Source: an uncultured SAR86 cluster bacterium (GTDB lineage Bacteria > Pseudomonadota > Gammaproteobacteria > Magnimaribacterales > D2472). Taken from it: 64,000 nucleotides of DNA. Within the stretch, counting starts at the first letter, position 1; every line of letters begins with the position of its first letter. The stretch is taken from positions 1 to 64,000 of the forward strand of contig CABZRR010000004.1 of NCBI GenBank assembly GCA_902528215.1. Direction: 5' to 3'. The notes below the pieces were generated by a model that saw only the letters and a list, made by a program, of their open reading frames with translations, ran no database searches and had not been told where the DNA came from. Positions 16,792 to 35,773 of the stretch are shown here, piece after piece. Position numbers and translations under genes: made by a program.

Positions 16792-17225
16792 CGATAATCA
16801 TATTTGTAATATTTTAATCCAATAGAGGATTCTGAAAATCTTACACCGGGCAAAGAAGAAATCTCTTCATATAGTACTTTTGAAAGCTTGGTGACATCCT
16901 CTGCAAGAATAAAAACCATTAGGTCATGACGGCCCAATAAAGTTGAAACAAACCTTACTTCTTTCATTTTTGAAAGAGCTTTTGCAACTGAATCTTTGGA
17001 GCGCGTTTCAACATCCAAACCAACAAAAGCCAAAGAAGGATTTTCTAAACGGTTAATGTTATTGATTACAGAAATTTTTATTACCTTATTTTGAATGAGT
17101 TTTTGAATTCTATTTCTAACAGTGCCCTCTGTAACTCCAATTACTTTCGCCATTTGATTATTTGACATTCTTGCATCTGCACCTAGCAATTGAACGATTT
17201 TTTTATCAGTTTGGTCAAGCTTCAT
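16770..17225 (-). CDS. Lrp/AsnC-family transcriptional regulator
   Basis: MKLDQTDKKIVQLLGADARMSNNQMAKVIGVTEGTVRNRIQKL winged HTH plus RAM domain. The track starts at 17264; internal MKLDQTD start preferred. Confidence 0.88.
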   Translation of the reverse strand: MKLDQTDKKIVQLLGADARMSNNQMAKVIGVTEGTVRNRIQKLIQNKVIKISVINNINRLENPSLAFVGLDVETRSKDSVAKALSKMKEVRFVSTLLGRHDLMVFILAEDVTKLSKVLYEEISSLPGVRFSESSIGLKYYKYDYRWARILD

Positions 17226-17682
17226 TTGCAAAGGGAGTCCAGTCAGTTTCAAATTTATACACACTAGATGCTATTGCAGGAGCAATACTTTTTATTCCAA
17301 CAATTGATGGCAATGTTTCATCTAAAAATATTTTTGTTTCATGTAAGCTTTTAGTTGCGCACAGAATTTCTATATCTTGTATTCCACTGACAACATTAAC
17401 ACTAAAAATTTCTTTCTGATTTGAAAGTATCTCGGCTACCTCCTCTAATTTATCGCCCTGTACTCTAATTCCTACAGGAAGCAAATAATCATAGCCAAAC
17501 TTTTCAAAATCAGCTATGGCTATAATTTTACAAAAACCTCCATCGATGATTTTTGATAATCTTTTACTCACAGTTACTTCGTTGATAGACAATTTTTCAG
17601 CAATTGATTTTGCTGGTGCACGACCGTCGAGCTCTAAGATTTCTAGGATTTTATGGTCAAGATCATCTAGCGAAACTTTCAC
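17215..17682 (-). CDS. Lrp/AsnC-family transcriptional regulator (second copy)
   Basis: MKVSLDDLDHKILEILELDGRAPAKSIAEKLSINEVTVSKRLSKI HTH; overlaps the first regulator. Confidence 0.87.
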   Translation of the reverse strand: MKVSLDDLDHKILEILELDGRAPAKSIAEKLSINEVTVSKRLSKIIDGGFCKIIAIADFEKFGYDYLLPVGIRVQGDKLEEVAEILSNQKEIFSVNVVSGIQDIEILCATKSLHETKIFLDETLPSIVGIKSIAPAIASSVYKFETDWTPFANEA

Positions 17683-17708: not shown

Positions 17709-18581
17709 TTAGAATTCTCTTTTTTTAAGATCCAATCCAGAGGGAATATCTGCTCTATTGACTAGAAACTGTCCATACCATTTTCTTAACTTTCTAAGTG
17801 GGCCATCGCCATCACATACTACTGGATCGGGTATATAGATCTTATTTTCCCAAATCGCAACATCTTGTCCAAAAGCATAATTATTTGCATCGACATATCC
17901 CTGAATAAAAGCTGCCTCATCTTCAGCTGACATACCAGGAACTTTTTTTACCATAACCCCAAAGTTAATTTGAAATGACGTCAATGTTAATGGAATGTGA
18001 GTTACTGCAAGCCTGCTCTCAACCTTCATGCCGTCATGCACTGCACTCATGTATGTTGTCATATAGGCTGGGCCCTCATAAGTTGCTTGTGAGAAAAGAT
18101 CGCGTCCGAGAATAGGACTGTCTGCTGTCATTTCTTGGGTGTAAGTATGGTCCTTAGCTTCATTCCAAAAGCCTTCGAATGGAGCCTGGTGCACAGGACC
18201 AAAATGACCTTTATCTGCCATATTGTCTATAAGTTCACGGCAATTATTTTTAACAAGAAAACTAGCCATTCCATAATCTGACCACTCATCGGAGTAACAC
18301 TCTTCTATTTTTTTTGGCAGATAATCAGGATCTCCCTTTTCAACATCATGCCAAACTAATACCATTTGATTCCTTTCCAAAACTGGCCATGATTCCCCGT
18401 CACCAACATCAATACTAATTCCATCATCTGTTCTAAGAACTTTAATCTTTCTGTTAAATCCTAATATATTTTTAGTCTCTCCAACAGGAAAATCTCTCTG
18501 ATGACCAAGCGCAAACCAGCCTCTAGGGAATCTATCAGGAAGGTCGCTGGTTAGAACATCTTCTTTAAAAACTGAACTCAT
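17709..18581 (-). CDS. Rieske-type oxygenase catalytic subunit, KshA-like, lacking its own Rieske cluster ligands
   Basis: Catalytic mononuclear-iron motif NNCRELIDNMADKGHFGPVH; N-terminus PRGWFALGHQRDFPVGETKNI...LVWHD resembles the edges of a Rieske domain, but no C-x-H...C-x-x-H is present. Confidence 0.82.
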   Translation of the reverse strand: MSSVFKEDVLTSDLPDRFPRGWFALGHQRDFPVGETKNILGFNRKIKVLRTDDGISIDVGDGESWPVLERNQMVLVWHDVEKGDPDYLPKKIEECYSDEWSDYGMASFLVKNNCRELIDNMADKGHFGPVHQAPFEGFWNEAKDHTYTQEMTADSPILGRDLFSQATYEGPAYMTTYMSAVHDGMKVESRLAVTHIPLTLTSFQINFGVMVKKVPGMSAEDEAAFIQGYVDANNYAFGQDVAIWENKIYIPDPVVCDGDGPLRKLRKWYGQFLVNRADIPSGLDLKKREF

Positions 18582-19014
18582 CTATTCTTTCTCCATTTAA
18601 ATCTGCAGAATTACCATCTCTATCAAACCAAACATAAATTGAGCCGTCAAGTTCATCCACTTCCCATGAACGAGTAACAGCTTTTGGAGGTATCCTCTTT
18701 GCATAAGGTACTTCATTGCATGGACCCTCTCCAGACCATCGCCACGCATGGAAAGGACACCTAATTCCATCTTCTTCAACCTCCCCGCAAGCCAATGATG
18801 CACCCATGTGTCTACAATATAAGTCGAGCGCTGATAATTGATCATCTTTGCCTCTCCATACTACGATTTGCGTAGGAAAATCATCCACTTGTATGGCCTC
18901 CATTGAACCTATGTCATTGCTATCAGCAACTTTATACCATCCAGGCTTCAGTTGAACTCTCTTTGGGTCTCTCTGTTCTGGTAAATCAGGTGCTATGAGC
19001 TCTTGATCAGTCAA
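18565..19014 (-). CDS. Stand-alone Rieske [2Fe-2S] protein, KshA N-terminal-like
   Basis: LYCRHMGASLACGEVEEDGIRCPFHAWRWSGEGPCNEVPYAKR: CRH and CPFH cluster ligands, close to KshA as remembered; stops before any catalytic domain. Confidence 0.88.
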   Translation of the reverse strand: MTDQELIAPDLPEQRDPKRVQLKPGWYKVADSNDIGSMEAIQVDDFPTQIVVWRGKDDQLSALDLYCRHMGASLACGEVEEDGIRCPFHAWRWSGEGPCNEVPYAKRIPPKAVTRSWEVDELDGSIYVWFDRDGNSADLNGERIDEFSF

Positions 19015-19100
19015 AATTTTCTCCCTATATCATCTAATCAAATAATTACTATTATATATATATTAAAATTAATCAACGAGTATCAAAGCAATCAAATTAG

Positions 19101-19988
19101 TCAATCGCTTGATTCTTGATTGAATTTAGATACCACCTCTTCTGCCATTGAAAGCTGACTAATATCCTTTGAAGTAGGGACTAACAGAGCATCTGTTGCG
19201 CCCAACTCTTTAATTTCAACTAAAAAATTGTATAGGTCGTTTTGATTTCCAGAAAACCCTGCTATTTCAGATAAATTTTTTGCAAGATCTTCGCCCATCC
19301 ATCCTAAATATCTTGTTAAGTGAGTCTTAATATCATCCCGACCCGTATCTCCCAATCCAAACCAGAAACTTGTTATTAGCCTTGGAGAAATTTTTTTCTG
19401 ACTAAACGCCTCTTTTACTCTGTTAAACGAATCACTAATTTCTTTTAGATCTGCATTAAATGAAAAACCTGCTAATCCCATTGCAAAATCAGCTGACATG
19501 GACATTGCCTTTGGTCCAACTGCGCCTGCTAGAATTTGAGGTCCAGCCTTTGAAAAGGTGTTTGGGCCCATTTCTTTATGATAATCTTTCGACCAAACTG
19601 ACTTCATGGTTTTCACATTCTTTGCAAGAGTTGCCCATCTTCTATCTGACCAATTAGAATTAATGGCAGTATAGTCCTCTTCTCTTCCTCCAACACCAAC
19701 ACCAAGAGTGAATCTGCCCTCTGCAAGCATATCAATTGTTGCAAATTGTTTAGCGCTAAGGATAGGATTATGCATTGTTAGAATAGACACCGTTGCAATA
19801 ATCTCTACTCGATTAGTCCAAGCTGATACGGCACTAAGAGTAGAAATAAATTCGGGATTTGGAAATAAAATTCTCTCTCCAAGAGCAATGTGAGACCAAG
19901 GACCTGTATCAATTTTTTTAGTCCATTTTTCTAGATCTTTTCTTGTAAGATCAGGCTCCATGACCGGGAGGGTCATGCCAATTTTCAT
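19101..19988 (-). CDS. Luciferase-like monooxygenase (LLM class) oxidoreductase
   Basis: [23 protein letters not shown] pattern and (beta/alpha)8-type sequence typical of LLM flavin/F420 enzymes. Confidence 0.82.
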
Positions 19989-21001
19989 GACTTAGATTTT
20001 TGTTTTATTAAATCAAGTGCAACATCGACAATCATGTCTTCTTGACCTCCAACCATTTTTCTTTTACCTAGCTCAATTAAAATTTCTCTGGTATCTAAAT
20101 TATAGGTCTCAGCCGCTGACTCGGCGTGCCTTAAAAATGATGAATAAACTCCTGCATATCCTAAGGTTAAAGTTTCCCTATCTACTCTTACAGGCCTGTC
20201 TTGCAAAGGCCTAACCAACTCCTCTGCCGCATCCATTAATTTAAATAAATCTGTTCCGTGCGGCCATCCAAGCCTATCAATGGCTGCAATAAAAACTTCA
20301 AGTGGAGCATTGCCTGCACCAGCTCCCATTCCAGCCAAACTTGCATCAACACGATTTGCTCCATTTTCGACTGCAACAATAGAGTTAGATACGCCCAATG
20401 ATAGATTATGATGAGCATGCATACCTGTTTGAGTTTTTGGATCTAGTGTATCTTTAAAAGCTTTAAACCTATCAGCGACGTCTTCCATGCTTAATGCGCC
20501 TCCTGAATCTACAACATAAACACATTCAGCTCCATATGACTCCATAAGCTTTGCTTGATTAGCTAAATTTGATGGTGAGGTCATATGAGACATCATTAAG
20601 AAACCAATAGTATCCATTCCCAACTCTCTTGCAAATTCTATATGTTGTTTTGAAACATCTGCTTCTGTGCAATGCGTTGCAACCCTTACAGATCTAACTC
20701 CAAGATCCCAAGCCCACTTGAGGTCTTCTTTTATAGCAATACCTGGCAAGATTAAAGTCGTTAGCTTTGAATGATCCAAATTTTCAGCAACAGCGCCTAT
20801 CCATTCTTTATCTGTATGTGCACCAAAACCATAATTAAATGATGATCCTGCTAAACCATCCCCATGAGCAACCTCAATAGCATCAACTTTTGCATCATCC
20901 AATGCCTTTGCAATTTCAATGACATGGTCAAGTCCATATTGATGACGGATAGCATGCATACCATCTCTTAATGTCACATCCTGAATATATAACTTTTTCA
21001 T
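19985..21001 (-). CDS. 4-hydroxy-2-oxovalerate aldolase (HsaF/BphI/DmpG-like)
   Basis: [34 protein letters not shown]; 4-nt overlap with the dehydrogenase gene. Confidence 0.95.
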
Positions 21002-21921
21002 GAATTTAACTTTATAAGCTCATGCGCTGTTCCCATTGCAGCTGAAGTCATGATATCTAAATTTCCTGCGTATGTAGGAAGATAGTGACCAGCTCCTTCG
21101 ACTTCAAGAAAAATTGAAGCTTTTAAACCTTCAAATTCACCATATCCAGGAATGGAACAAGGATTATTAGAACCAAATCTTTCAAATTGAACCTCTTGTT
21201 TAAGTCGATAGCCAGGTACATAAGATTGAACTCTTTTAACCATTGACTCAATGCTTTCTTTAACTAACTCCTGGTCAGTTGGATCACACAAAGTAAAGAC
21301 AGTATTCCTCATCAACAAGGGTGGCTCTGCTGGATTTAATACAATTATTGCTTTTGCTTTATCTGCACCTCCAACCTTTTCGAGACCAAGGGCTGTAGTC
21401 TGAGTAAACTCATCAATGTTTGCTCTTGTTCCTGGCCCTGCGGACCTAGAAGAAACTGATGCAACTATCTCAGCATATTTCACACTGGATACTTGATTTA
21501 CCGCAGCAACCATTGGAATGGTTGCTTGACCTCCACATGTGACCATATTTACATTCTGTTGCTTTAAGTGCTCAGACAAATTTACAACAGGCACACAGTA
21601 TGGACCAATTGCTGCAGGAGTTAAGTCAATCATCTGTTTTTTATCTTTTGCAATTAAATCATGATGAGTTTTATGCGCGCCTGCTGAAGTTGCATCAAAA
21701 AATATCAAGGTATCCTCATACTCCTGCATTTGCATAAATCCCTCTAATCCATCTGAGGAAATAGGAATATTTAAGGATTTTGCCATTGCAAGGCCCTCTG
21801 AGTCAGGATCGATACCAATGACACCATTCAATGTCAAATAGTCAGAGGTATGAATAATTTTAAGCATTAAATCTGTTCCAATATTTCCAGATCCTATGAT
21901 TGCGCATTTTGTCTTATTCAT
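20998..21921 (-). CDS. Acetaldehyde/propionaldehyde dehydrogenase, acylating (HsaG/BphJ/DmpF-like)
   Basis: [31 protein letters not shown] catalytic Cys region. Confidence 0.95.
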
Positions 21922-21923
21922 AG

Positions 21924-22709
21924 TTAAATAAAATTGATTCCACAGGTTCCAACACCTTTAAGATTCATTCTAAATTTATCTCCAGCTTGTGCAGGTTCTA
22001 ATGGCACCAATGAACCTGATAAAATAAATTCTCCTGTAAGCAATGGTATATCATATTCACCCAAAGTATTAGCTAGCCATGCAACAGCTTCGGCCGGATG
22101 CCCTTGAACTGCAGAACCCTTACCTGAAGAAAGAAATTCCTCATTTTTAAAAACCTCAACCTCTAGTTCATCCATTGCAAACTCATTTGGAGAAACTGCG
22201 CCCTCACCTAATACAAAAATTCCGCAAGATGCATTGTCTGCAATAGTATCTTGAATCTTAATTTTCCAATCATCTATTCTTGAATCAACTATCTCAAAGC
22301 AAGGAATAATTTTTTCTGTTGCCGAAATAACATCCTCTTTGGTAATGCCTGGTCCATGGAGGTCTTCTTTTAAAATAAAAGCAATTTCAGCTTCAGCTCT
22401 TGGTTGAATTAAATACTCTGAAATTAAAAAATTTGATTTATTTTTTACTTGCATTGTATTAGTTAAAAAGCCAAAGTCCGGTTGATTTACACCAAGCATT
22501 TCTTGCACAACCTTACTTGTTACACCAATTTTCTTACCAATAACTTTTTCTCCCTCAATCTCTCGATGAGAAAGGAATTTCTTAGAAATCTGATATGCAT
22601 CATTGATATCTATATCTGGATACCTATCAGTCAAAGGCTGAATCATTTTTTGCTTTTTTAATGCTGAAAATAACTCGAACGCAATATCAGCAATAGTACT
22701 AGGGTTCAT
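21924..22709 (-). CDS. 2-keto-4-pentenoate hydratase (HsaE/BphH/DmpE-like)
   Basis: [49 protein letters not shown]. Confidence 0.93.
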
Positions 22710-22712
22710 GCT

Positions 22713-23522
22713 CTAAGAATTTAAAAAGTTAATACAAGCGTTATTAAAAACTGTTTCCTGCTCAATCATAACCCAGTGTCCACATTGACTAAAAAGCATT
22801 ATCTGGGAATTTTGGCAACCATTACCTATTTTCATGGCGCCTGAAACTGGTATGAACTGATCATTCATCCCCCAAAAAGCCAGAACTGGTTGAGTAATAG
22901 ATGGAAGATCTGATTCCATATTGGGTATATCCATTGTTGCCATTACTTGAGAATTCATTAGCGGCAGAATTTCCATTCTCTCATCAATCATCTCTTTAGT
23001 TATTATTGATTTGTCATATGGAAATAGCTCAAGCAAGCCCTCTATTTTGTCTTGATCCATATCGCCACCTAAAAAATCAGAGAGTAATTTCTTAATCCCA
23101 GGCATTGAGTTATAAACTTCAAAATCCTCTATACCTCCTGGAGCCATCAAAATTAGCTTCTTAACTCTTGCAGGATGATCTAAAGCAAGACCAATTGATA
23201 ATGCGCCACCTAAACTATTTCCCAATAAAGAAAATTCCTCAATTTTAAGGGCATCAACAAACTCAATTAATTTTTTATTGAAATATTGTAATGAATATAT
23301 TTCATTATCTGGCTTGGACGAAAATCCATATCCAGGAAGATCTGGCAAAATTACTCTGAAACCTGCATCCTTTAAAGCAATAAAGTTATTTTTAAAATTT
23401 GTATGTCCAGATGCTCCAGTGCCACTTCCATGTAAAAGAAGAAGAACATGCCCGTCACCTTCATCATAATAATGAAATTTGAAGCCATCATTAACTTCAA
23501 TAAATGATCCTTTCGGAATCAT
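22713..23522 (-). CDS. Alpha/beta hydrolase, meta-cleavage product hydrolase (HsaD/BphD-like)
   Basis: LLLHGSGTGASGHTNF, GNSLGGALSIGLAL nucleophile elbow, C-terminal CGHWVMIEQ; next to the hydratase gene. Confidence 0.9.
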   Translation of the reverse strand: MIPKGSFIEVNDGFKFHYYDEGDGHVLLLLHGSGTGASGHTNFKNNFIALKDAGFRVILPDLPGYGFSSKPDNEIYSLQYFNKKLIEFVDALKIEEFSLLGNSLGGALSIGLALDHPARVKKLILMAPGGIEDFEVYNSMPGIKKLLSDFLGGDMDQDKIEGLLELFPYDKSIITKEMIDERMEILPLMNSQVMATMDIPNMESDLPSITQPVLAFWGMNDQFIPVSGAMKIGNGCQNSQIMLFSQCGHWVMIEQETVFNNACINFLNS

Positions 23523-23525
23523 GAT

Positions 23526-24875
23526 TTAAATCCTAGTAAGCGTTATTGGCAGGCCATCAATTGGACGAGGCAAGTGAACATGCTGAAAAGCAGGATTATA
23601 ATCAGATCTTAAATTGATCTTATAGTTTTTAAGTAGCCTAAATAAATATAATTTCGCATTCATCATTGCAAAGTGCATTCCAATACACTTATGCGCCCCG
23701 CCGCCAAATGGGACATAACTAAAACCATGTCTTTTATGCTCGGCTCGCTCGGGTGAAAATCTCATTGGATCAAAAGTATAAGGATCATCCCACCATTGCT
23801 CCATTCTATGAGTGAAAGGCGGGCTGATCATTACTACAGTGTTTGCAGGAATATCATAACCAGCAACATTCACGTCCCTTGTTGTTCGTCGGTTTAAGAC
23901 CATCACTGAAGGATAAAATCTTAAGGTTTCTTGAAATACATACTCAGTCAAATTCATTTCAGCTAGATCTTCAAAAGTTGGCATTTCGTTAGTAACACTG
24001 AAAATTTCATTTCTAACTTTATCTTGCCATTCAGGATTTTTTCCTAGGTAATAAAGAATATTTGTTAAAGCACTTGTTGTAGTATCAAATGCAGCAAATA
24101 GTAAAAATGCAATATGTCCATCAATATCAATATCATCTAAGTACTCCCCATCTTCATCTTTCGCGTTACAATATCTTGTAAACATATCCAAACCGTTGCT
24201 GCCCCTTCTTTTAGGAATATTTTCAATGAAAAACTGTCTTAGTTCCTCTCTAGCTTTGAGTGATTTTCTAAATTGCAGGAATGGAAGATCATAAGGTAGT
24301 GGAGTAATTAAACCCTCATTTATCTCTGAGAAAAGATATCCAAGTTTTTTTGCTTCAGGGCTTAATTCATCTAATCCGATAAAAACTCTTGCTGCAACAT
24401 CCATTAAAGTTTTTTGGATATTATCGTAAAAAATAAATTCTTCGTTGATTGGAAGATCTTGAATGCGCCTTTCTTGGATAGGAATTAACATATCTACATA
24501 TGTTTTCAATGCATCATTTTTGAATGCAGGTTGAGAAGCTCTTCGCGTCCTTTTATGCTTGGCATCATCTCTTGTTAACATTCCATCAGGATAAAGACCT
24601 CCCAAAGAGCTTGCATAGCCACCCGCAACACTGAAATTACCTTTTGGGTCAAACAATGTAGCTTCATTAAATTCTGGACCTAAACACATTAAAACTCTTT
24701 GATTTTTTACCATATCCAATCGGGAAACAGGCCCATATTTCTCATAATGTTTGTTGCACATGGCCAATGTATCTTTTACAAACTCAACGGTTTTGCCAAG
24801 AAAAGGAAGTCCATATTCACCTGGAAACATTGAGAGGTCTCTGTTATCTGGAGCTAATGTATTTAAATCTGACAT
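23526..24875 (-). CDS. Cytochrome P450
   Basis: I-helix AAFDTTTSAL, ExxR QETLRFYP, heme loop PFGGGAHKCIGMHFA. Confidence 0.96.
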   Translation of the reverse strand: MSDLNTLAPDNRDLSMFPGEYGLPFLGKTVEFVKDTLAMCNKHYEKYGPVSRLDMVKNQRVLMCLGPEFNEATLFDPKGNFSVAGGYASSLGGLYPDGMLTRDDAKHKRTRRASQPAFKNDALKTYVDMLIPIQERRIQDLPINEEFIFYDNIQKTLMDVAARVFIGLDELSPEAKKLGYLFSEINEGLITPLPYDLPFLQFRKSLKAREELRQFFIENIPKRRGSNGLDMFTRYCNAKDEDGEYLDDIDIDGHIAFLLFAAFDTTTSALTNILYYLGKNPEWQDKVRNEIFSVTNEMPTFEDLAEMNLTEYVFQETLRFYPSVMVLNRRTTRDVNVAGYDIPANTVVMISPPFTHRMEQWWDDPYTFDPMRFSPERAEHKRHGFSYVPFGGGAHKCIGMHFAMMNAKLYLFRLLKNYKINLRSDYNPAFQHVHLPRPIDGLPITLTRI

Positions 24876-24884
24876 AGTTTTACA

Positions 24885-25655
24885 TTATGAATTTTTTGCA
24901 ACTAATTTCCACCAATAATTTGGTAAGAATCTTCTTATCCTAGTTGCATATAAAGCTTCTTTTGTAGGATAGCAAATAATTTTATCGGTATGTAAATCTT
25001 TTTCTATTTGATCGACCACTTCCTCTGGATCACATAGCATGCCTTTTTCAACTGCAGTATTAATTACATTTGGTGCATCCGTCTCATCAACAAATCTCAT
25101 TAAAGGAGTATTGGTTTGAGCAGGACAAACTACCATAACTCTGATATTTGTGTCTTTGACCTCTTTAGCTAATATTTCACCAAAAATATTTACAGCTGCT
25201 TTGGAAGCGCAATAAGCAGACATATTTTCAAGAGGACACATTCCTGCAATTGAACCAAAAAGTATTATTTGCCCAGTATTTTTTTCTAGCATTGAAGGCA
25301 AAATATTACTCACGATATTTACAGTACCCTCATAATTAATTCTCATTAAATTATTTATAGAGGTTGAATCTAAGTCCTGAATTCTACCCATCGGCATTAC
25401 TGCTCCAGCATGAGTAACTCTATCGATTTGTCCTATTTGAGTATTTACCTCGTTAACCATTTCCTTGACAGCATTTGCATCTGCCAAATCACAATGAAAG
25501 GTTGAGATGTTATTGGACTCTTTTTTCAATTGATTAAGATTTTCTTCGTTTACATCAACTGCTGCTACATGAATTCCATCTGCTGCAAGTCGTTTTGCAG
25601 AAATCTTTCCCATTCCACTGGCTGCACCAGTTATTAAGGCATTTTTAATTTCCAT
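24885..25655 (-). CDS. Short-chain dehydrogenase/reductase
   Basis: ITGAASGMGK, YCASKAAVN motifs. Confidence 0.93.
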   Translation of the reverse strand: MEIKNALITGAASGMGKISAKRLAADGIHVAAVDVNEENLNQLKKESNNISTFHCDLADANAVKEMVNEVNTQIGQIDRVTHAGAVMPMGRIQDLDSTSINNLMRINYEGTVNIVSNILPSMLEKNTGQIILFGSIAGMCPLENMSAYCASKAAVNIFGEILAKEVKDTNIRVMVVCPAQTNTPLMRFVDETDAPNVINTAVEKGMLCDPEEVVDQIEKDLHTDKIICYPTKEALYATRIRRFLPNYWWKLVAKNS

Positions 25656-25680
25656 AATTATTTCCTTCCTCTGAAATTTA

Positions 25681-26373
25681 CTATATCACTAAATATCTAC
25701 TTGTTGGGATAACTTCAATTTTTGAAAAATCAATAAATTTGTTACAACTTTCCATCATAATTTGTAAATTTTTTTTCAACAATGTTGAGTTACCTTTGGC
25801 AGCATAGAATTCTTCTTGATCTAACATTGCTCCGCTGGGAAAACATTCTTCAATGATGGCAACAAAATTTGGGGATTTTTTGTTAAGTTTCCTTACAACT
25901 GTATTTTGCGTATAAATGAAATTTGATTGAGTTTCTATAGCAATTTCAGTGTGATGATGTGTCCAGTGATCAAACCAATCAAATATATCTATATTTTTTG
26001 GCTTTTCAAGGAAAACAATTTGGGAAAATCCATCGGTTCGCTTATTTAAATTCTTTGAATCATCAGCTTCAATAATCTTAGATTCGCTAATAATATAGCT
26101 AAAAAAAAATTTTACATGCGATTCAAAAATTGAAAGCTTTCGCTCAAAGTGAAAAAAACTTTTTACTTTTAAAAAGACAACAGCGTTTGGACTTGGTGGA
26201 TAACAAGATTGAATTAAGCCAGCTGCATCTTTAACATCTTTATCTGCCAAGTTTGCTTGATAGCTTGAAATATGATCTTTTAAAGAATGTGGAACTTCAT
26301 TAATGAGAAAGTTTTTGAAATCCTCTTCTTCGATATCTGGATTTTTCCAAAGTTGAATGGCAATTTTTTCCAT
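25681..26373 (-). CDS. EthD-like / dimeric alpha-beta barrel protein (function unknown)
   Basis: Two repeat-like halves with QLWKNPDIEEEDFKNFLI and EVPHSLKDHIS...; FDWFDHWTHHHTEIA. Weak similarity only. Confidence 0.45.
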   Translation of the reverse strand: MEKIAIQLWKNPDIEEEDFKNFLINEVPHSLKDHISSYQANLADKDVKDAAGLIQSCYPPSPNAVVFLKVKSFFHFERKLSIFESHVKFFFSYIISESKIIEADDSKNLNKRTDGFSQIVFLEKPKNIDIFDWFDHWTHHHTEIAIETQSNFIYTQNTVVRKLNKKSPNFVAIIEECFPSGAMLDQEEFYAAKGNSTLLKKNLQIMMESCNKFIDFSKIEVIPTSRYLVI

Positions 26374-27155
26374 CAGGCTTTTTGGGATGAGGCGGATACT
26401 ATTTCACCAGTCATATATGAAGATAGATCTGATGCAAGAAATAAGATGATATTTGCAATTTCCCAGGGCTCTGCTCCTCTTCCATATGCTTCCTTAGATT
26501 CGAGGTCTGCGATTAATTCATCTGAACTAGTTTTAGATAGGTGAGGATTAATTGCAAGACTAGGAGCAACAGCGTTAATTCTTATCCCATAATCTACTGT
26601 TTCCATTGCGACACACCTAGTTAATGCCATCACGCCTGCTTTAGCAGCTGCATAATGAGATTGACCAGCTTGTGCTCTCCAGCCCAAAACAGATGCATTA
26701 TTTACAATGACTCCTTGGGTATCTTTAAGAATGGGAATCGCTGCTCTCATAATTTTCATTGCGCCATTTAAAGTAACATCCAAAACTAAATTCCATGCCT
26801 CATTTGTCATGTTCTCTAGGAAAGACTCGCCACCTAATCCAGCATTATTGATAACGCCATCTAAATGAGAAAAACAAAAAATGGCTTTATTAAACATAAT
26901 TTCAATATCCTCATCACTCGTCACATTGCAAAGACAGCCCTCGACTTCACCAAGATTCATGTCTTTTAAATTTTTTATAGCTTCATCCAAACGAGCCTCG
27001 TGAACATCAGAGATAAAAACATTAGCACCCTCCTCAAGAAATCGTTTAGCTGAAGAAAAGCCAATTCCAGATCCTGCTGCTGCAGTTAAAAGTATATTTT
27101 TTCCTTCAAAGAGGTTTCTTCCTTCTGGATAATTTGGAGAAAATAAATTATTCAT
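26373..27155 (-). CDS. Short-chain dehydrogenase/reductase (steroid-cluster SDR)
   Basis: LLTAAAGSGIGFSSAKRF, YAAAKAGVMALTRC; MNNLFSPN start preferred over the tracked 27203. Confidence 0.9.
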   Translation of the reverse strand: MNNLFSPNYPEGRNLFEGKNILLTAAAGSGIGFSSAKRFLEEGANVFISDVHEARLDEAIKNLKDMNLGEVEGCLCNVTSDEDIEIMFNKAIFCFSHLDGVINNAGLGGESFLENMTNEAWNLVLDVTLNGAMKIMRAAIPILKDTQGVIVNNASVLGWRAQAGQSHYAAAKAGVMALTRCVAMETVDYGIRINAVAPSLAINPHLSKTSSDELIADLESKEAYGRGAEPWEIANIILFLASDLSSYMTGEIVSASSQKA

Positions 27156-28306
27156 GTGCAATTCTCTAAAATTGTTACGTTTGCTTGCCCGCCACCTTCG
27201 CACATTGTTTGTAAGCCATATTTAAGATTGCTTCTTTTCATTGTATGTATCATTGTCGTCATTAATCTTGCTCCAGTAGCCCCTAAAGGATGGCCAAGTG
27301 CAATTGCGCCTCCGTTGGGATTAATTTTTTCCATTGGATAATCCATTTCCTTTTGCCAAGCCATAACAACTGATGCAAAGGCCTCATTTATTTCAACTAC
27401 ATCAATATCATCCAAGGTTATTCCTGATTTTTTGATTGCATGCTTCGTGGCAGGCATCGGAGCTGTAAGCATCCATATAGGATCATCTGCTCTTACGCTA
27501 ATATGAGCAATCCTTACCAAAGGATTAAGATTATGTTCCTTTAGAACTTTTTCAGAGACAATTAATAGTGCAGATGAAGCATCAGCATTTTGAGATGAAA
27601 CTGCTGCAGTTATATCATGACCCTCAATCAAAGGATTTAAAGAAGCCATCTTTTCTAGTGATGTCTCTGCTCGTGGAGTTTCATCTTGAGTAAATTTTCC
27701 AATGGTTACTATTTCATCTTTAAAATGACCGTTATCAATTGCATTGATTGCTTTTTGATGACTATGATAAGCATAATTTTCCATCTCTGATCTAGATAAT
27801 TTCCACTTTTCAGCAATCATTTGAGCAGAATTAAATTGGCTAACATCCTGTGCTCCGTATCGCTTTACCCAACCTGATGAACCTGAAAATGGGTCATTAA
27901 ATCCTAGCGATTGGCCAGCTAACATTGCGTAAGAAATAGGAATCATGTTCATGTTTTGAACACCTCCAGCAATCACTACATCAGCTGTACCGGACATTAT
28001 TGCTTGAGCGGCGAAATGAACTGCTTGCTGAGAAGATCCACATTGCCGATCAACCGTTGTTCCTGGGACATGTTCTGGCAATCCAGCTGCCAGCCAGCAA
28101 GTTCTCGCAATATCCCCTGCTTGAGGCCCTACAGTATCTACACATCCATAAATTACATCTTCGACTAGATTAGGATCAAGATCTATCTTTTTAAAAGTAT
28201 CTGAAAGAACAATGGCACCTAAGTCTGCTGGATGAACTCCAGATAAGGAGCCTTTCTTTTTTCCAATTGGAGTCCTTAGAGCGCTAACTATAAATGCATC
28301 TTGCAT
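27152..28306 (-). CDS. Thiolase / acetyl-CoA acyltransferase (FadA6-like)
   Basis: DRQCGSSQQAVHFAAQAIMSG, NPNGGAIALGHPLGATGARL, CEGGGQAN. Confidence 0.93.
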   Translation of the reverse strand: MQDAFIVSALRTPIGKKKGSLSGVHPADLGAIVLSDTFKKIDLDPNLVEDVIYGCVDTVGPQAGDIARTCWLAAGLPEHVPGTTVDRQCGSSQQAVHFAAQAIMSGTADVVIAGGVQNMNMIPISYAMLAGQSLGFNDPFSGSSGWVKRYGAQDVSQFNSAQMIAEKWKLSRSEMENYAYHSHQKAINAIDNGHFKDEIVTIGKFTQDETPRAETSLEKMASLNPLIEGHDITAAVSSQNADASSALLIVSEKVLKEHNLNPLVRIAHISVRADDPIWMLTAPMPATKHAIKKSGITLDDIDVVEINEAFASVVMAWQKEMDYPMEKINPNGGAIALGHPLGATGARLMTTMIHTMKRSNLKYGLQTMCEGGGQANVTILENCT

Positions 28307-28316
28307 GGCTTATCCT

Positions 28317-29354
28317 CTAAAAAGTATATAAAACACCTAACTCTTCTTCTGAAGAAGTAAGTGTTTTATAAATTATATCTTGTTGTTTATCTTCATTCCC
28401 CCAGCACGCCATTAGAGACCATGCTTTCCTCATAAATATATGAAGATCCATTTCCCATGTATATCCCATAGCACCATGCGCTTGAATGCTATTTTTGCAT
28501 GCCAGTTCAGCTGCTTTTGCGCTCATATATTTTGCATGGGCACAGTGCAATGCAGACTTTGGATTGTTTTCAAATAATGAATGTGCTGCTCTAAAAACTG
28601 TTGGTCTTGCAAACTCTATCTTGACAGCTACATCAGCTAACATATGTTTTATTGCTTGAAACGATCCAATTGGTTTTCCAAACTGAGTTCTGTCAAGCGC
28701 ATACAAAGAACTCAGGTCCAACATTTTTTGAGCTAATCCGATTAACAAGCAACCTGACATTAAAGCACCACGAGCTGCAACAGCTGAATTGATTTTCTCA
28801 AATTCTTCACTCGATGAAACGGATTTTTTAATTGAGTTAAGCTTAGAAAGCTCTCTCGAAGGATCATTTGAAACCAGGGGTATAAAATCTATATCTTCTT
28901 TTAGAGCAAATTGATAAGAGTCTTCTTCAAATAAAAGAAGGCCTGCAGCATCATTTAAAAATAGAGGATTAGGGGACAATGGATGTGCTACTGAAATGAA
29001 GTTACCTCCAGTTTGATATGTATTTTTGATTTCTCCTTTAATTGAGTCTGGGAGAAGAGGCATCAAGTCATTAATTAAAAATATTTGTTCTGCTACTGGC
29101 TCCGGCAATGCTGCATAACCCATCTCTTCAACCATCAAGGAAAGTGCTACTTGATCAATCCCAAAACCGCCATCTTTTTCGGGTAAGTTGGAACTTAAAA
29201 CTCCAAGATCAGCTATTTTATTCCATCTGTCATTATTAAATGGTTTTTTAGCTGCCCAACCATCTCGAATTGAATCAGGAGTGCATTCATCTGCTAAAAA
29301 AGACTGAACTGTATTTTTAAATTGAAGTTGCTCTTCTGTAAAATTAAAATTCAT
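28317..29354 (-). CDS. Acyl-CoA dehydrogenase (IpdE2-like small partner)
   Basis: MNFNFTEEQLQFKNTVQSFL; RTQFGKPIGSFQAIKHMLADV; IQAHGAMGYTWEMDLH. Confidence 0.88.
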   Translation of the reverse strand: MNFNFTEEQLQFKNTVQSFLADECTPDSIRDGWAAKKPFNNDRWNKIADLGVLSSNLPEKDGGFGIDQVALSLMVEEMGYAALPEPVAEQIFLINDLMPLLPDSIKGEIKNTYQTGGNFISVAHPLSPNPLFLNDAAGLLLFEEDSYQFALKEDIDFIPLVSNDPSRELSKLNSIKKSVSSSEEFEKINSAVAARGALMSGCLLIGLAQKMLDLSSLYALDRTQFGKPIGSFQAIKHMLADVAVKIEFARPTVFRAAHSLFENNPKSALHCAHAKYMSAKAAELACKNSIQAHGAMGYTWEMDLHIFMRKAWSLMACWGNEDKQQDIIYKTLTSSEEELGVLYTF

Positions 29355-29356
29355 AA

Positions 29357-30509
29357 TTATTTAGGCAGTCCTAATAGTCTTTCTGCAATAATGTTCTTTT
29401 GAATTTCATTAGTGCCTGCATAAATTGGGCCACCATATGAAAACATAAACCCTTTGATCCATTGAGCTGCATCATGCTCTGAAGAATCAGCTAGCTCAGC
29501 ACTAGCTCCTAAAATTTTAAGAGCAGTTTGATGCATCATGTGGTCTAATTCAGACCAAAATATCTTACCTAAGCTAGATTCGGATCCAATTGATCCTCCG
29601 GCAAGCATTTTTGATGCAGTGTGATAAATGCTCAATGCATAGGATTCAGATTCAGCCCATGCTTCTACCACTTTTGATTGCAACATTGGTGAGCATTGAT
29701 CTTTATTTTTATAATATAGCTTAAGTAACTTTGCAGCAGTCTGTTGAAAACGTGCAGGACTCCTCAACATTAATCCTCTCTCAAAACCAGCTGTTGCCAT
29801 TGCAATTTTCCATCCTTCACCATCTTCACCCAACAGGTTTTCTCTCGGAACAATCACATCATCAAAATATATTTCAGCAAAGCCTGGTTCACCATCTAAT
29901 TGAGGTATGGGTCTTACAGTCACTCCTGGTGTATCAAGTGAAACCAAAATAAAGGAAAGGCCTCTATGTCTCTCAGACTCTAGATCAGTCCTGAATAAGC
30001 CAAATGTCCAATCAGCATATGCTGCTCTAGATGACCATGTTTTTTGACCATTGATCTTGTAATGATCGCCGTCCAAAACTGCTGTGGTTCTTATAGCTGC
30101 CATATCGCTTCCAGCTCCAGGCTCAGACCAGCCTTGAGACCAAATATGATCTCCAGTTGCCATTGCATTTAAAAATTTTGACTTTTGCTCATGGGTACCG
30201 AACTCCATCAATGTAGGGCCGAGAAGAAATACTCCATTTTGATTTACTCTTGTTGGAGCTTCAGCGCGATAGTACTCCTCTTCAAAAATTAACCAACGAA
30301 TTAAGTCTAGCCCTCTCCCGCCATATTCTTTTGGCCAAGTAACCATGGACCAGTTCCCAGAATTTAATGTTTTTTTCCCATTCTCTGTGTTGCTCAAATC
30401 CTTCTTTTGTATCCAAAGACAAGAGAGGTTTTTTTGGCACATTAACCTCAAGCCAGTATCTAACTTCTTCTCTAAATATATTTTGTTCTTTTGTAAAATT
30501 AATTTTCAT
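29357..30509 (-). CDS. Acyl-CoA dehydrogenase (IpdE1-like), interrupted by an apparent +1 frameshift in a 7-T run
   Basis: N-terminus MKINFTKEQNIFREEVRYWLEVNVPKK...HREWEK lies in the 30282-30545 ORF and continues as TLNSGNWSMVTWPKEYGGRGLDLIRW in the 29357-30451 ORF if one base of the T run at 30370-30376 is removed. Confidence 0.85.
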
Positions 30510-31260
30510 CTTTAAAATCAGCATCTCTTTTTTCAACAAATGCATCTCGGGCTTCTTGCGAGTCTTTCGATTTGTAGAGTTCTAGAGTAAAATTTTGTTC
30601 AGACTTATAATGCTCGTCAACATTTCCATGCTCAATTTCATTTAAAGCTTTTTTTGCAAGATTCATAGCAATTGGACTTTTTGAAGCAATATCATCAGCA
30701 ATATTAATAGCAGCCTCATGCAAAGAGTCAAAGTTAGGGTGCAGTGATTCAATAGATCCATATTCATATGCCCTTTGTGCTGAAATAGGCTTGCCGGTAA
30801 ACATCATTTTGCGGACTGCCTGCAAAGGAAATAATCTACTTAGATGTGCGCCTCCTCCAAGCGCACCTCTGTCTATTTCAGGTAAACCAAAGTATGAATC
30901 CTCGGTGGCTAATACAATATCAGCAGCACCAGCGAGGAGTATTCCGCCCCCTAAGACAAAACCATGACATGCAGAAATTACTGGCACATTGCAGACATGA
31001 ATTGCTCTGGCAGTTTTCCAGCAGCCGTCATTCACATCGGTAATTTTTGAGGAATCTTCTTGTAATTCCTTGATATTAGCTCCTGCGCAAAAACCCTTGC
31101 CTTTACCAGATAAAACTATCGCTTTTACTTCATCATTATGGGATAAATTATCAATATTTATAGCAAGATCTAACCATTCGGTTGAGGTCAAAGCATTAAC
31201 TGGAGGGCAATCCAAAATTATTTCAGCAACTCCGTTTTTAATTGTTGTATAAACACTCAT
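30499..31260 (-). CDS. Enoyl-CoA hydratase/isomerase family, EchA20-like ring hydrolase
   Basis: GKGFCAGANIKEL, FGLPEIDRGALGGGAHLSRLFP, close to remembered EchA20 sequence. Confidence 0.87.
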   Translation of the reverse strand: MSVYTTIKNGVAEIILDCPPVNALTSTEWLDLAINIDNLSHNDEVKAIVLSGKGKGFCAGANIKELQEDSSKITDVNDGCWKTARAIHVCNVPVISACHGFVLGGGILLAGAADIVLATEDSYFGLPEIDRGALGGGAHLSRLFPLQAVRKMMFTGKPISAQRAYEYGSIESLHPNFDSLHEAAINIADDIASKSPIAMNLAKKALNEIEHGNVDEHYKSEQNFTLELYKSKDSQEARDAFVEKRDADFKDEN

Positions 31261-32297
31261 TGTTTATCTCCCTCTAGCTTATTGAAATTTTCCGCTGCAA
31301 AAGAAAACTCATCCATAATCTGATCCACAAGCTGCTTGCAAGAGGGTAAATTAGAGATAAGGCCAGCTACTTGCCCAGATGGCATAGCCCCCTCATTTGG
31401 TGATCCCTCAACCATAGCTTTTTGAATTATTGCTGGACTATTTGCTGACATTATTGATTGAGATATTGTTAAATCGTCACCCTTTAACATTGCAAAAAAA
31501 GATTTTATTAAATCCGCATATGATGCCTTTGTTAATTGTTTGTATTTCCATGCTGAGATTATGGACATTATAAATAGGCTAATTGGATTAGAACGATCAA
31601 TTTTTTTAATGTAATTATTAAAAATTAATCTATGTGACATGCCATCAAATTTTTTGGTTATTTTTATATCCTCAACATTTGCAGATAAGTATGCTTCTTT
31701 AGTGTCATGAGGCACAGGACTCTCTTTTGTCATCATAAATCGAGTTCCCATTGCAATGCCGCAAGCTCCCCATGCGAGGGATGCTGCTAAACCAGAGCCG
31801 TCTCGAAATCCTCCTGCAGCAACTACTGGCAAATTTACACTTTCAAGTACTGAGCTTAAAAGAAGTGTGGTAGGTGTTGAGCCAGTGTGGCCGCCTCCCT
31901 CTGAACCTTGAATAACTATTGCGTCTGCACCAAGTTCCTCAGCTTTCACTGCATGTTTTAGAGCTCCAACAGTTGGGATACAAACAACTCCTGCTGCTTT
32001 GAATTCTTGAATAAACTCAGGTGTAGGAGATCTTGAATAACTGACTGCTTTAATTTTTTTATCAATAACAGCTTGTACAATTTCCTCGGCTCCAGGTTGA
32101 AACATATGAAAATTAATGCCAAAAGGTTTATTTGTTAGAGCTTGAGTTTCATCCATCATCTCAATTGCCTCTTTTGGACCTGCTGTTGCTAAGGCAAGGA
32201 ATCCAAAGGCTCCTGCATTTGATGAAGCAGCAACAAGTTCTGGTAAAGCCACCCAACCCATCGCAGTTTGAATAATTGGGTATTTACAACCCAGCAT
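31257..32297 (-). CDS. Nitronate monooxygenase-family flavoprotein (IpdC-like)
   Basis: IIQTAMGWVALPELVAASSNAGAFGFLALA, VIQGSEGGGHTGSTPTTLLL, VVAAGGFRDGSGLAASLAWGACGIAMGTRF. Confidence 0.88.
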   Translation of the reverse strand: MLGCKYPIIQTAMGWVALPELVAASSNAGAFGFLALATAGPKEAIEMMDETQALTNKPFGINFHMFQPGAEEIVQAVIDKKIKAVSYSRSPTPEFIQEFKAAGVVCIPTVGALKHAVKAEELGADAIVIQGSEGGGHTGSTPTTLLLSSVLESVNLPVVAAGGFRDGSGLAASLAWGACGIAMGTRFMMTKESPVPHDTKEAYLSANVEDIKITKKFDGMSHRLIFNNYIKKIDRSNPISLFIMSIISAWKYKQLTKASYADLIKSFFAMLKGDDLTISQSIMSANSPAIIQKAMVEGSPNEGAMPSGQVAGLISNLPSCKQLVDQIMDEFSFAAENFNKLEGDKQ

Positions 32298-32327
32298 ATT
32301 AGTTAACTTATTAATATTCGCGTCCTT

Positions 32328-33236
32328 TTATTTTTTTTTCTTTGGGGCAGCTTTTTTTGATGAATTTTTTTTTACTGCAGTTTTTTTCATATTCTTTCTT
32401 TGAGATTTAGCCATTTTTTTGGCATCAAAACCAGCAAGCACATTGCCAGTAGTAAGATCATTATGTGCATGAGAAAAATGATGCCATGCAAAGGCAGCCT
32501 CCATGCCATTTCTTTTTCCTTGCAGATCCTCAACATGATTAATTGCTTGTTTTGTTAAAGTTAAACCCAGTCTTGGCATTGCGGAAATCTTAGATGCCAT
32601 CTCCATTACAGAAGACTCCAACTCGGACAAAGGAACTACCTTATTTACCATTCCCATCTCATAGGCTCTTTCAGCAGACATCCTTTCTCCTAAAAATAAA
32701 AATTCTTTCGCAATTCTAGGATTTAATTCATAAGGATGAGCAAAATACTCGACACCTGGAATGCCCATACGCACAACTGGATCGGCAAAAAATGCATCCT
32801 CAGAGGCCACAATAAGATCGCAAATCCAAGCCAACATACATCCACCAGCTACACACGCGCCTTGCACCATTGCTATTGTTGGTTTAGGCATATCCCTCCA
32901 GCGCCTGCACATATTTAAATAGACCTCTTGTTCTCTAACGTATAAAAATTCGCCTCCTGGCTTATTTGTGTGGTCATACCATATAGATTTTCTGTCATAC
33001 TCAACATCAACATCTCTTCCAGGTGTCCCAATATCATGACCAGCTGAAAAATGTTTTCCATTACCTTTTAAAACTATTACCTTTACATCATCATCGTCTA
33101 TAGCTTTTTTAAAGAATTTATCAAGGTCATAAGTCATCTTTCCATTTTGAGCATTGTTATATTCAGGCCTATTCATAGAAATAATGGCAATTCCATCTTT
33201 CTTTTTATATGTAACTGTTAGTTTCGTTTTAGGCAT
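32328..33236 (-). CDS. Enoyl-CoA hydratase/isomerase with lysine-rich C-terminal tail
   Basis: GKHFSAGHDIG, VQGACVAGGCMLAWICDLIVAS crotonase motifs; tail KKMAKSQRKNMKKTAVKKNSSKKAAPKKKK. Confidence 0.9.
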   Translation of the reverse strand: MPKTKLTVTYKKKDGIAIISMNRPEYNNAQNGKMTYDLDKFFKKAIDDDDVKVIVLKGNGKHFSAGHDIGTPGRDVDVEYDRKSIWYDHTNKPGGEFLYVREQEVYLNMCRRWRDMPKPTIAMVQGACVAGGCMLAWICDLIVASEDAFFADPVVRMGIPGVEYFAHPYELNPRIAKEFLFLGERMSAERAYEMGMVNKVVPLSELESSVMEMASKISAMPRLGLTLTKQAINHVEDLQGKRNGMEAAFAWHHFSHAHNDLTTGNVLAGFDAKKMAKSQRKNMKKTAVKKNSSKKAAPKKKK

Positions 33237-33238
33237 TT

Positions 33239-33994
33239 TTATTCTCCAAAAATTGTATTGCGAATACCTTGAGGATCAAGAACCTCTCTTATTAAAACAA
33301 GCTCCTCACTTGATGGCATAGATGTAATACTGTCTGATTGGATTGCAATCTCAAATCCAGTGTTTGTAATAACATCATCTACACTTACATTTGGATGTAA
33401 AGATAGTAACTGCATGCAATTATTTTTTCCATTAAAGTCAAAAATGCCGAGATTTGTTATAACCCTCTTTATTTCAAATATTCCATTAGATAATTCTTTA
33501 TTCTTGTAGCCCATTCCAGACACCATATCAACCTCACCCTCTACAAAAGTTTTTATAGAATGATTTGGTATAAAAATTGAGTTTTTATGGTTAATAGAAT
33601 TTCCAGGAAATCCTCTGACACCCAGCAACTGAATTTTTGGTGAATCGTAGTTACCAATTACGCTTATGTTTGTTTGTCCAAAAGAATCAATTTGGGTAGG
33701 GGTAACCATTGCATGTCTTTTTCCTCCCCAAAGATTCTCAAATACACGGCTATAACTCATGTATCCCTCAACTTGATCTGCTGATGAGTCTCTTTTACCC
33801 ATTGGAGCAGGTTCTGAGATCAAGTACGTTTCTCCATCTGTCATCATTAAATCTGGATTATGTGTAAGTTTTGCTAAGCCTGCAGCTATTCTAGGAATCA
33901 GACCAATGCCAGTTGCAAGAATTTCTCCATCATCCTGCCAGGCTTTTGAAGCTTGGCTTATACATATCTCTGCTAATGAAATAGAGTCTGACAT
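33239..33994 (-). CDS. ipdB: CoA-transferase-family beta subunit (IpdB-like ring hydrolase)
   Basis: Adjacent to the IpdA-like gene; GTYLISEPAPMGKRD-type region and GVRGFPGNSINH, VITNLGIFDF motifs. Confidence 0.85.
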   Translation of the reverse strand: MSDSISLAEICISQASKAWQDDGEILATGIGLIPRIAAGLAKLTHNPDLMMTDGETYLISEPAPMGKRDSSADQVEGYMSYSRVFENLWGGKRHAMVTPTQIDSFGQTNISVIGNYDSPKIQLLGVRGFPGNSINHKNSIFIPNHSIKTFVEGEVDMVSGMGYKNKELSNGIFEIKRVITNLGIFDFNGKNNCMQLLSLHPNVSVDDVITNTGFEIAIQSDSITSMPSSEELVLIREVLDPQGIRNTIFGE

Positions 33995-33995
33995 T

Positions 33996-34865
33996 TTAAA
34001 ATTGTGGTAAAGGTATTTTCGTTATCTCTTCGGTGCCGCCAACAGATTCTAAGTAATCTTGATGAGTTTTATTCATATATTTATCAGCATAATCATTGAA
34101 AGACTTTGCTGAATCTGAATATTCTTTTAAATGCCTAATATCAAATCCATAGCTTGGAGAGCAAGATGTTGGATGTGCGCCACAGGGTGAATGAACCACT
34201 CCAGTTACAAGACTTCTCTCAAATCTATTGAATATAGCTCCATCCTTGCCGCCTAGCTCCTGGGTGGATAATAACTCTTCTGATGATACAAAAGTCTTCT
34301 CAGCCGCTCTAGCAAAAAGATCATCAAAAAAAGGATCTGGACCGATAATCTGCGTATTGCCTTTTTCATCAGATTTATTGACATGGAGTAATGCTATGTC
34401 TAATTTGATTGCTGGCATGGCAATGAAACTCTCTTTGTCTTTATAAGGTGATTTTACAAATTTTAATTCTGGATTATGAGTTAAAACATCTGTTCCAAAT
34501 CCAACTCTCGTAGGTAAAAAAGGAAGATTCATAGCAGCTGAGCGCAAGCCCCATTGAAGCATTCCCTCGTCTAACTCCATAACTTCAATTTCTTTATTTT
34601 GACGCGCTTGTCGAAAATGAGCCTCTAAGGGAATTAAATCCAAAGAAACAAATCCAAATATAAGTTTTTTTACTTTTTTATGAGCGCATAGCAAACCAAT
34701 GTCTGGACCACCATAACTCACAACAGTTAAATCTTTTATATCTGATTGGCATATCTCTCTAACTAAGGACATAGGTTTTCTTCTTGCGCCCCATCCTCCA
34801 ATACCAATAGTGGCATTGCTCTGAAGATGATCTAAGACATCTTTATGAGTTAATACCTTATTCAT
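33996..34865 (-). CDS. ipdA: CoA-transferase-family alpha subunit (IpdA-like ring hydrolase)
   Basis: IGIGGWGARRKPMSLVREICQSDIKDLTVVSYGGPDIGLLCAHKKVKKLIFGFVSLD closely resembles IpdA. Confidence 0.9.
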   Translation of the reverse strand: MNKVLTHKDVLDHLQSNATIGIGGWGARRKPMSLVREICQSDIKDLTVVSYGGPDIGLLCAHKKVKKLIFGFVSLDLIPLEAHFRQARQNKEIEVMELDEGMLQWGLRSAAMNLPFLPTRVGFGTDVLTHNPELKFVKSPYKDKESFIAMPAIKLDIALLHVNKSDEKGNTQIIGPDPFFDDLFARAAEKTFVSSEELLSTQELGGKDGAIFNRFERSLVTGVVHSPCGAHPTSCSPSYGFDIRHLKEYSDSAKSFNDYADKYMNKTHQDYLESVGGTEEITKIPLPQF

Positions 34866-34870
34866 TTATT

Positions 34871-35773
34871 TTATGCTTCGGGCATTTTAAACTCATGACC
34901 CCAATGACTTGGAGCTGGTGAATAAGTTGTTTCGTAATTATCCCAATCAGGCTGAATGCCATCATATCCAAATTCAAGCATAAAACCGCCTGGTGTCATC
35001 ATATAGAAAGAAACCATATTATCATTCATGTGTCTTCCAAGAGTTGAAGAGATATGGATATTATTTTCAATTGCTCTATCCATGGCATCAACTACCTGCT
35101 CAGCAGTCTCAACTTCAACCATTGCATGCACAAGTCCGGATGGGGGTGTGGGAGCTTGCATCATTGCAACAGTATGATGGCGCGGATTATCACAATGCAT
35201 AAAATATAAAACTGATTCAGGATCATTGGGATCCGGAGAAAATCTCATTCGCATAATATCTGAATCTCCAAAATTCATTACTTCTTTATAAAAGTCGTGA
35301 GCAGCTTCAACTTCAAGCGTTCCAAAAACTAAATGGCCCAAGCCCAATCCATGAGTAACAAATTTAGAAATATCTTGGGAAGACTTGAACTTATTTGTAT
35401 CTGTACTTCTTCCATAAAAAAGTTCTAGTTTGTTTCCTGCTGGATCATCAAAGCTTAAAAGCTCCTCAACACACCTTAGCGAAGCTAACTCTTTACTTTC
35501 GATTGCAACTTCAATTCCAAAATTACTAAGTTCTTTTTTTGCTTCTTCAAAAGCTTCCTTGTTTTCAAGTTCGAAGCCACCCCTCGCGTACCTATCATTA
35601 TCTCCTTTTTGTACCTGAAATCTGAATGGACTTTCATCCATTCGAAAGAATAAGTTTTTCTCATCGCTCAGATCATTATTCTTCATTAGCCCAACTACGT
35701 CTCGAGCATATGCCTCCCAGCTTTCTAGATTGGTTGATTCAATTAAAATATAACTTAGAGATTTTATTTTCAT
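34871..35773 (-). CDS. Type I extradiol ring-cleavage dioxygenase (HsaC/BphC-like)
   Basis: Two vicinal-oxygen-chelate repeats; ligands in HGLGLGHLVFGTLE, SGLVHAMVEVE and GGFMLEFGYDG. Confidence 0.93.
   Translation of the reverse strand: MKIKSLSYILIESTNLESWEAYARDVVGLMKNNDLSDEKNLFFRMDESPFRFQVQKGDNDRYARGGFELENKEAFEEAKKELSNFGIEVAIESKELASLRCVEELLSFDDPAGNKLELFYGRSTDTNKFKSSQDISKFVTHGLGLGHLVFGTLEVEAAHDFYKEVMNFGDSDIMRMRFSPDPNDPESVLYFMHCDNPRHHTVAMMQAPTPPSGLVHAMVEVETAEQVVDAMDRAIENNIHISSTLGRHMNDNMVSFYMMTPGGFMLEFGYDGIQPDWDNYETTYSPAPSHWGHEFKMPEA

Follow-up and report, generated by a model that had tools for sequence, protein, structure and literature searches.

The locus studied here raises the question of what it means when the two halves of a KshA-type Rieske oxygenase lie on two short, adjoining reading frames: is this a broken gene, or are two proteins made that act together as one enzyme? 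The window, i.e. the whole 64,000-nucleotide stretch of DNA that was analysed, comes from a SAR86-cluster genome (G000; 1.18 Mb in 30 contigs, 81% complete) whose closest named relatives are SAR86 single cells. A sequence-only reading had picked out a 149-aa frame with a complete Rieske domain and no catalytic domain, overlapped by 17 nt in another frame by a second one carrying the catalytic iron site. The coordinates and the overlap (18565-18581, both genes on the minus strand) were confirmed; the two products are here called RSK and CAT.

19021..19025, minus strand: Shine-Dalgarno-like GGGAG of RSK
18565..19014, minus strand: RSK, a stand-alone KshA-type Rieske protein of 149 aa with a TTG start (PF00355, E 6e-21)
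18591..18594, minus strand: Shine-Dalgarno-like GGAG of CAT, within the 3' end of RSK
17709..18581, minus strand: CAT, a KshA catalytic subunit without Rieske cluster, 290 aa (PF19298, E 3e-57)

Both frames were searched against Pfam. RSK matched the Rieske model PF00355 and no catalytic domain, as had been claimed for it; CAT matched KshA_C (PF19298) with 194 bits against a cut-off of 23, and the search returned no Rieske model (PF00355) for it. The domain content of the two proteins is exactly complementary. In relatives, too, the position of the RSK TTG has a start codon. The best PDB match of RSK is the crystallised R. rhodochrous KshA5 (4qdc; E 9e-33), to residues 28-142 of which it aligns; CAT aligns to residues 19-63 of the same protein and then to 121-354. 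The flanks of the Rieske domain therefore occur twice, in RSK and again in CAT. The residues and segments that matter for the argument are the following.

18748..18816, minus strand: Rieske cluster ligands C67, H69, C86 and H89 of RSK
18411..18539, minus strand: CAT residues 15-57, the first stretch of the basal Rieske sheet that CAT retains (RFPRGW...)
18396..18410, minus strand: excision scar DVGDG, CAT residues 58-62, from the alignment to KshA5
18342..18395, minus strand: CAT residues 63-80, the closing strands of the basal Rieske sheet, running on into the catalytic domain
18189..18215, minus strand: bridging Asp D123 and iron ligands H126 and H131 of CAT
17862..17864, minus strand: iron ligand D240 of CAT (D304 in M. 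tuberculosis KshA)

In the alignment with intact KshA proteins, residues 69-120 of KshA5, which carry all four cluster ligands in a CxH and a CxxH motif, have given way to the five residues DVGDG in CAT. What lies on either side of this scar is well ordered in the AlphaFold model of CAT (pTM 0.81), where residues 20-80 form six strands, mostly with pLDDT 91-96: four in the first segment (21-27, 36-40, 45-51 and 54-58; pLDDT mostly 93-96) and two in the second (67-70 and 73-78; pLDDT 91-95). The model matches the KshA crystal structures with a TM-score, by query length, of 0.79-0.83 over about 330-340 alignment columns; in fold, the CAT chain resembles KshA end to end. Residues D123, H126 and H131 of CAT align with D178, H181 and H186 of M. 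tuberculosis KshA (PMC4064121), and these three and D240 are invariant wherever the bases are readable. The catalytic iron site claimed for the second frame is thus borne out by the PF19298 match and by the invariance of H126, H131 and D240.

Both genes are under purifying selection. The ratio pN/pS is 0.04 for the catalytic domain of CAT and 0.06 for the cluster region of RSK; in the base of CAT it is 0.13 (residues 15-50) and 0.07 (residues 65-80), and in the scar loop (residues 51-64), the least constrained part of the protein, it is 0.32. These are simple counts summed over close pairs, some with synonymous sites near saturation, and the ranking is clear. Since pN/pS is low in the base and highest in the scar, the remnant in CAT is not decaying; the scar alone is loose. 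The sequence-only reading had described this region as a Rieske-like edge joined to an exit segment with the core missing, and the repeated flanks (KshA5 19-63 and 121-354) agree with that; the N-terminal part is not a degenerate edge, however, but rather a constrained basal sheet that folds confidently in the AlphaFold model.

The same arrangement is found well beyond the window. When species-representative genomes were scanned, CAT was found at 28 SAR86 loci (77-99% identity), and RSK is the upstream frame at all of them but L056, whose contig starts inside CAT. In an order-wide search of 204 genomes the split CAT was present in 29, spanning two families and five genera. RSK was found in all 29 of these and is adjacent to CAT in 28; in the remaining one (G087) the two genes each lie at a contig end, so that RSK and CAT adjoin wherever both are on one contig. 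RSK also occurs in one further genome (G005), where it lies at the end of a contig. The pair with an identically placed deletion thus occurs in about 30 genomes, among them single cells, metagenome bins and the complete chromosome CP097973, down to 52% identity for CAT and 40-43% for RSK; the 52% is that of the distant family, where the deletion is still at the same place. The RSK proteins are 135-165 aa long and consist of the Rieske domain alone, and C67, H69, C86 and H89 are invariant in 22/22 aligned SAR86 sequences and also in the second family. Both frames are therefore kept in relatives, and a single-frame homologue spanning the junction was sought in close relatives and none was found. 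The intact KshA paralogs of some SAR86 genomes are separate genes of about 40% identity elsewhere in the genome. The split arrangement is conserved and natural, not a broken gene.

No split form was found outside the order when 369 sampled Gammaproteobacteria were searched with CAT, and in 399 sampled genomes of the phylum searched with the KshA_C model none of the other matches lay in an open frame shorter than 331 aa; apart from the split pairs, KshA is a single frame throughout the sample. Two candidates for further cases were set aside: a short KshA_C frame (L091) is cut by the contig end, and a lone Rieske frame in G163 is without the standard CxH ligand pair. The latter (L173:4515-4904; G163:C10) encodes a 129-aa Rieske-like protein with the motifs CPF...CPNH, possibly a Rieske fold that lost its cluster. 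Separately, a second, intact KshA_C-type Rieske oxygenase of 332 aa (L144:7463-8461; G000:C7) is present in almost every genome of the window's genus, even in some that gave no split pair; it lies next to genes for an amidohydrolase-like protein, an SDR and a sulfotransferase-like protein.

Two adjacent partial frames, in different frames, have the classic look of a frameshift, and could mean that an ordinary KshA gene was misread in sequencing or assembly or has lately become a frameshift pseudogene. Alternatively, programmed frameshifting or stop read-through could join the two into one fused protein, for which the 17-nt overlap in the window and the single in-frame TAA between RSK and CAT in one relative (L038) might speak. 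Across relatives, however, the junction is not conserved: between the stop of RSK and the start of CAT the frame offset is 0, 1 or 2, the genes overlap or lie up to 24 nt apart, several stops are frequent, and in some relatives RSK and CAT share a frame but are separated by stops. Because the junction varies in frame, spacing and stops, both sequencing error and recoding fail as explanations. An error or pseudogene is further at odds with the same layout in about 30 genomes, CP097973 included, with the repetition of the Rieske flanks in CAT and with the strong purifying selection; it is already refuted by the conservation, and we give it practically no weight. That a simple frameshift would not explain the pair had been claimed from the start, and the repeated flanks, variable junctions and conservation agree; further, no Rieske ligands of the second frame are hidden in another frame. 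As to a fused protein, CAT has its own GGAG-ATG, the GGAG being present in the window and in 6 of the 7 relatives checked, at variable junctions, and such a fusion would contain two basal Rieske sheets; it is highly improbable.

To see how the pair arose, one tree was built for the catalytic part and another for the Rieske part (52 rows each; support given as bootstrap/SH-aLRT). The split proteins are monophyletic in both (96/86 in the catalytic tree, 100/94 in the Rieske tree), and the sister group of either half is one and the same set of 14 intact KshA proteins; the two solved Rhodococcus KshAs and the intact SAR86 paralogs are among them. The join of the split clade with intact KshA is supported at 99/95 in the Rieske tree and moderately, at 91/79, in the catalytic tree. 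By these comparisons both domains share common descent with KshA. Mean identity to the base of intact KshA is 36-39% for the base of CAT, with 36% for its residues 15-57, and 26-29% for that of RSK. Since the RSK and CAT trees are congruent, they support the duplication and complementary degeneration that the sequence-only reading had proposed. A KshA gene, either whole or its N-terminal half, would have been duplicated in an ancestor of the SAR86-containing order, after which one copy would have been left without a catalytic domain and the other without the cluster-binding subdomain only.

RSK and CAT form the end of a minus-strand gene run whose content bears on their function.

19101..35773, minus strand: steroid-ring degradation cluster flanking RSK and CAT

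The run encodes an LLM oxidoreductase, an HsaF/DmpG aldolase, an HsaG acetaldehyde dehydrogenase, an HsaE hydratase, an HsaD-like hydrolase, an HsaC-like extradiol dioxygenase, a P450, SDRs, a thiolase and enoyl-CoA hydratases, together with acyl-CoA dehydrogenases and a CoA-transferase pair named by reading their sequences. It is a steroid-ring degradation cluster, in agreement with the pathway reported in SAR86 (PMC4810484). The passages of that paper on SAR86, KshA and Rieske proteins do not mention a split KshA, nor does any passage in it that uses the words split or truncated; it was the only paper found in the openly licensed literature on SAR86 and Rieske proteins or 3-ketosteroids, and an earlier notice elsewhere is possible. 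Gene order beside RSK and CAT is the same in another genus (L093) and, the LLM gene excepted, in another family (L090). The luciferase-like (F420/FMN-type) oxidoreductase at 19101-19988 of the window, minus strand, is flanked by HsaF and RSK both in the window and in L093 and is absent from that place in L090. Directly downstream of CAT are two tandem Lrp/AsnC-like regulators, again named by reading the sequence (16770-17264 and 17215-17682, both minus strand).

The gene structure, conservation, selection, phylogeny and predicted fold described above make it quite probable that RSK and CAT each form one kind of subunit of the same terminal oxygenase, which would be a split 3-ketosteroid 9-alpha-hydroxylase; it is from these observations that we infer complex formation, electron path and substrate. 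That the Rieske ligands are conserved in RSK and the bridging Asp in CAT strongly suggests that the [2Fe-2S] cluster would be supplied to CAT in trans, within a hetero-oligomer. In CAT, probably a trimer as KshA is, the steroid and O2 would bind at the mononuclear iron, and the cluster of RSK would hand electrons to that iron via the bridging Asp contact between the two proteins. In known Rieske oxygenases, KshA included, electrons travel between subunits via a bridging Asp, leaving the cluster in one and reaching the iron in its neighbour (PMC4064121, PMC12445004), the separation of cluster and iron being around 12 Å to the neighbouring subunit and around 45 Å within the same chain (PMC12445004, PMC4064121); the role of this Asp lies in coupling to a Rieske histidine (PMC4064121). 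Since the electron step in KshA already runs between neighbouring subunits, a separate Rieske chain fits the chemistry, and since D123 and the cluster tip of RSK are invariant, the D123 contact would still be used, now between two proteins.

The geometry is not simply that of KshA. Because CAT keeps its own basal sheet, the base of RSK must sit elsewhere than in KshA, and the obvious place for RSK to dock would be the gap left by the excised subdomain. When L038 was modelled as a read-through fusion, with the stop read as Gln, both parts were folded (pTM 0.71), and a fold search of this model against KshA gave a TM-score of about 0.4 and an rmsd of about 20 Å; in the model, RSK is probably not in the Rieske position of its own subunit.

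The source of the electrons was sought in the window's genome and seven other genomes of the SAR86 order (81-96% complete). No KshB-type reductase (FAD_binding_6, NAD and plant ferredoxin domains) was found in these eight, each of which has at most one match to PF00970 (FAD_binding_6). The match in the window's genome (L140, G000:C17) is NqrF-like, and those elsewhere, including G019, G026, G089, G088, G163 and G156, are in open frames of comparable length, 411-448 aa. Besides NqrF, the only plant-type ferredoxin domain found in the window's genome is fused to an IscA-like domain.

L149:1081-1800 (G000:C20): ferredoxin-IscA-like single ORF at an isc-type locus

It could be argued that RSK is instead a diffusible Rieske-type ferredoxin that takes electrons from a reductase and delivers them to CAT, perhaps to the neighbouring P450 too, without being a stable subunit. 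It is a free protein of 135-150 aa, as large as Rieske ferredoxins, and always lies beside CAT, and some carrier is needed where neither a KshB-type reductase nor, in the window's genome, a dedicated plant-type ferredoxin was found. Its origin, however, is that of KshA: it matches KshA with an E-value of 9e-33 but the ferredoxin CarAc with only 3e-4, it stays well short of the cut-offs of the NCBIfam ferredoxin models, and in a tree of Rieske oxygenases, which contained no ferredoxins, it joins KshA. Further, CAT has no cluster to take electrons, so RSK must deliver to the iron itself; therefore this alternative, which we think unlikely, differs from the subunit reading mainly in residence time. 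The two could also be combined, although this is speculative and we would not expect it to hold: RSK would be both the Rieske centre and a mobile carrier that parts from CAT, takes up electrons from a general reductase or a housekeeping ferredoxin, and returns. If so, these streamlined genomes would run a Rieske oxygenase without a dedicated KshB, and the basal sheet of CAT would be a docking platform for RSK. A different doubt concerns the substrate, which might be e.g. a steroid side-chain intermediate or a CoA ester; the split clade lies outside the intact KshA clade, so its substrate may differ, and some SAR86 genomes also carry an intact KshA-like paralog. Yet the adjacent genes for cleavage of rings A and B need a 9-alpha-hydroxylation step, and the window's genome, 81% complete, has only a 339-aa oxygenase of 29% identity to CAT and no other close KshA; the 194-bit KshA_C score also points away from another substrate, which seems doubtful to us.

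The SAR86 pair shares with single-chain KshA (M. tuberculosis 2ZYL/4QCK; R. rhodochrous 4QDC/4QDF) the catalytic domain, the iron ligands, the bridging Asp, the Rieske ligands, the cluster-tip motifs, the basal Rieske sheet and the steroid gene context. It differs in that KshA is one chain with a KshB-type reductase as partner, whereas in SAR86 the cluster-binding subdomain is cut from CAT, a whole second Rieske domain forms RSK, and no such reductase was found for the pair. The known precedent is NdmC, the 7-methylxanthine N7-demethylase of Pseudomonas putida CBB5, a catalytic subunit without a Rieske cluster that takes electrons from the Rieske domain of NdmD, in which that domain is fused to an FMN/plant-ferredoxin reductase; the GST-like NdmE is also needed, and a 3:3:3 complex of the three proteins has been reported (PMC4408171, PMC10380055). 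By analogy the SAR86 pair would work alike in principle, CAT being without a cluster and its Rieske domain lying on another protein, RSK. RSK is, however, free-standing and not fused to a reductase, and the pair arose separately, within the KshA lineage; a Pfam scan of ten adjacent proteins found no GST-like or reductase domain.

Stand-alone Rieske ferredoxins such as CarAc, BphF, HcaC and T4moC are likewise small single-domain Rieske proteins beside an oxygenase gene, but they feed oxygenases with a Rieske cluster of their own, which CAT does not have, and RSK is far closer to KshA than to proteins of that type. In heteromeric Rieske oxygenases (alpha3beta3, or alpha3alpha'3 in NdmA/NdmB) the terminal oxygenase is likewise built from unlike subunits; there, each alpha subunit has both metal centres and beta has none (PMC12445004), whereas the SAR86 pair has its metal centres on different chains.

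With the metal centres so placed, transfer within a chain is impossible, and the pair is a natural test of the rule that electrons pass between subunits. It further shows that the cluster-binding subdomain can be removed from a Rieske domain while the basal sheet stays, and a separable pair would let both metal sites be varied independently. Annotation pipelines likely call RSK and CAT fragments, and KshA, a marker of steroid degradation, may therefore be miscounted in marine data. In this abundant lineage of the ocean, the split state itself has persisted in two families.
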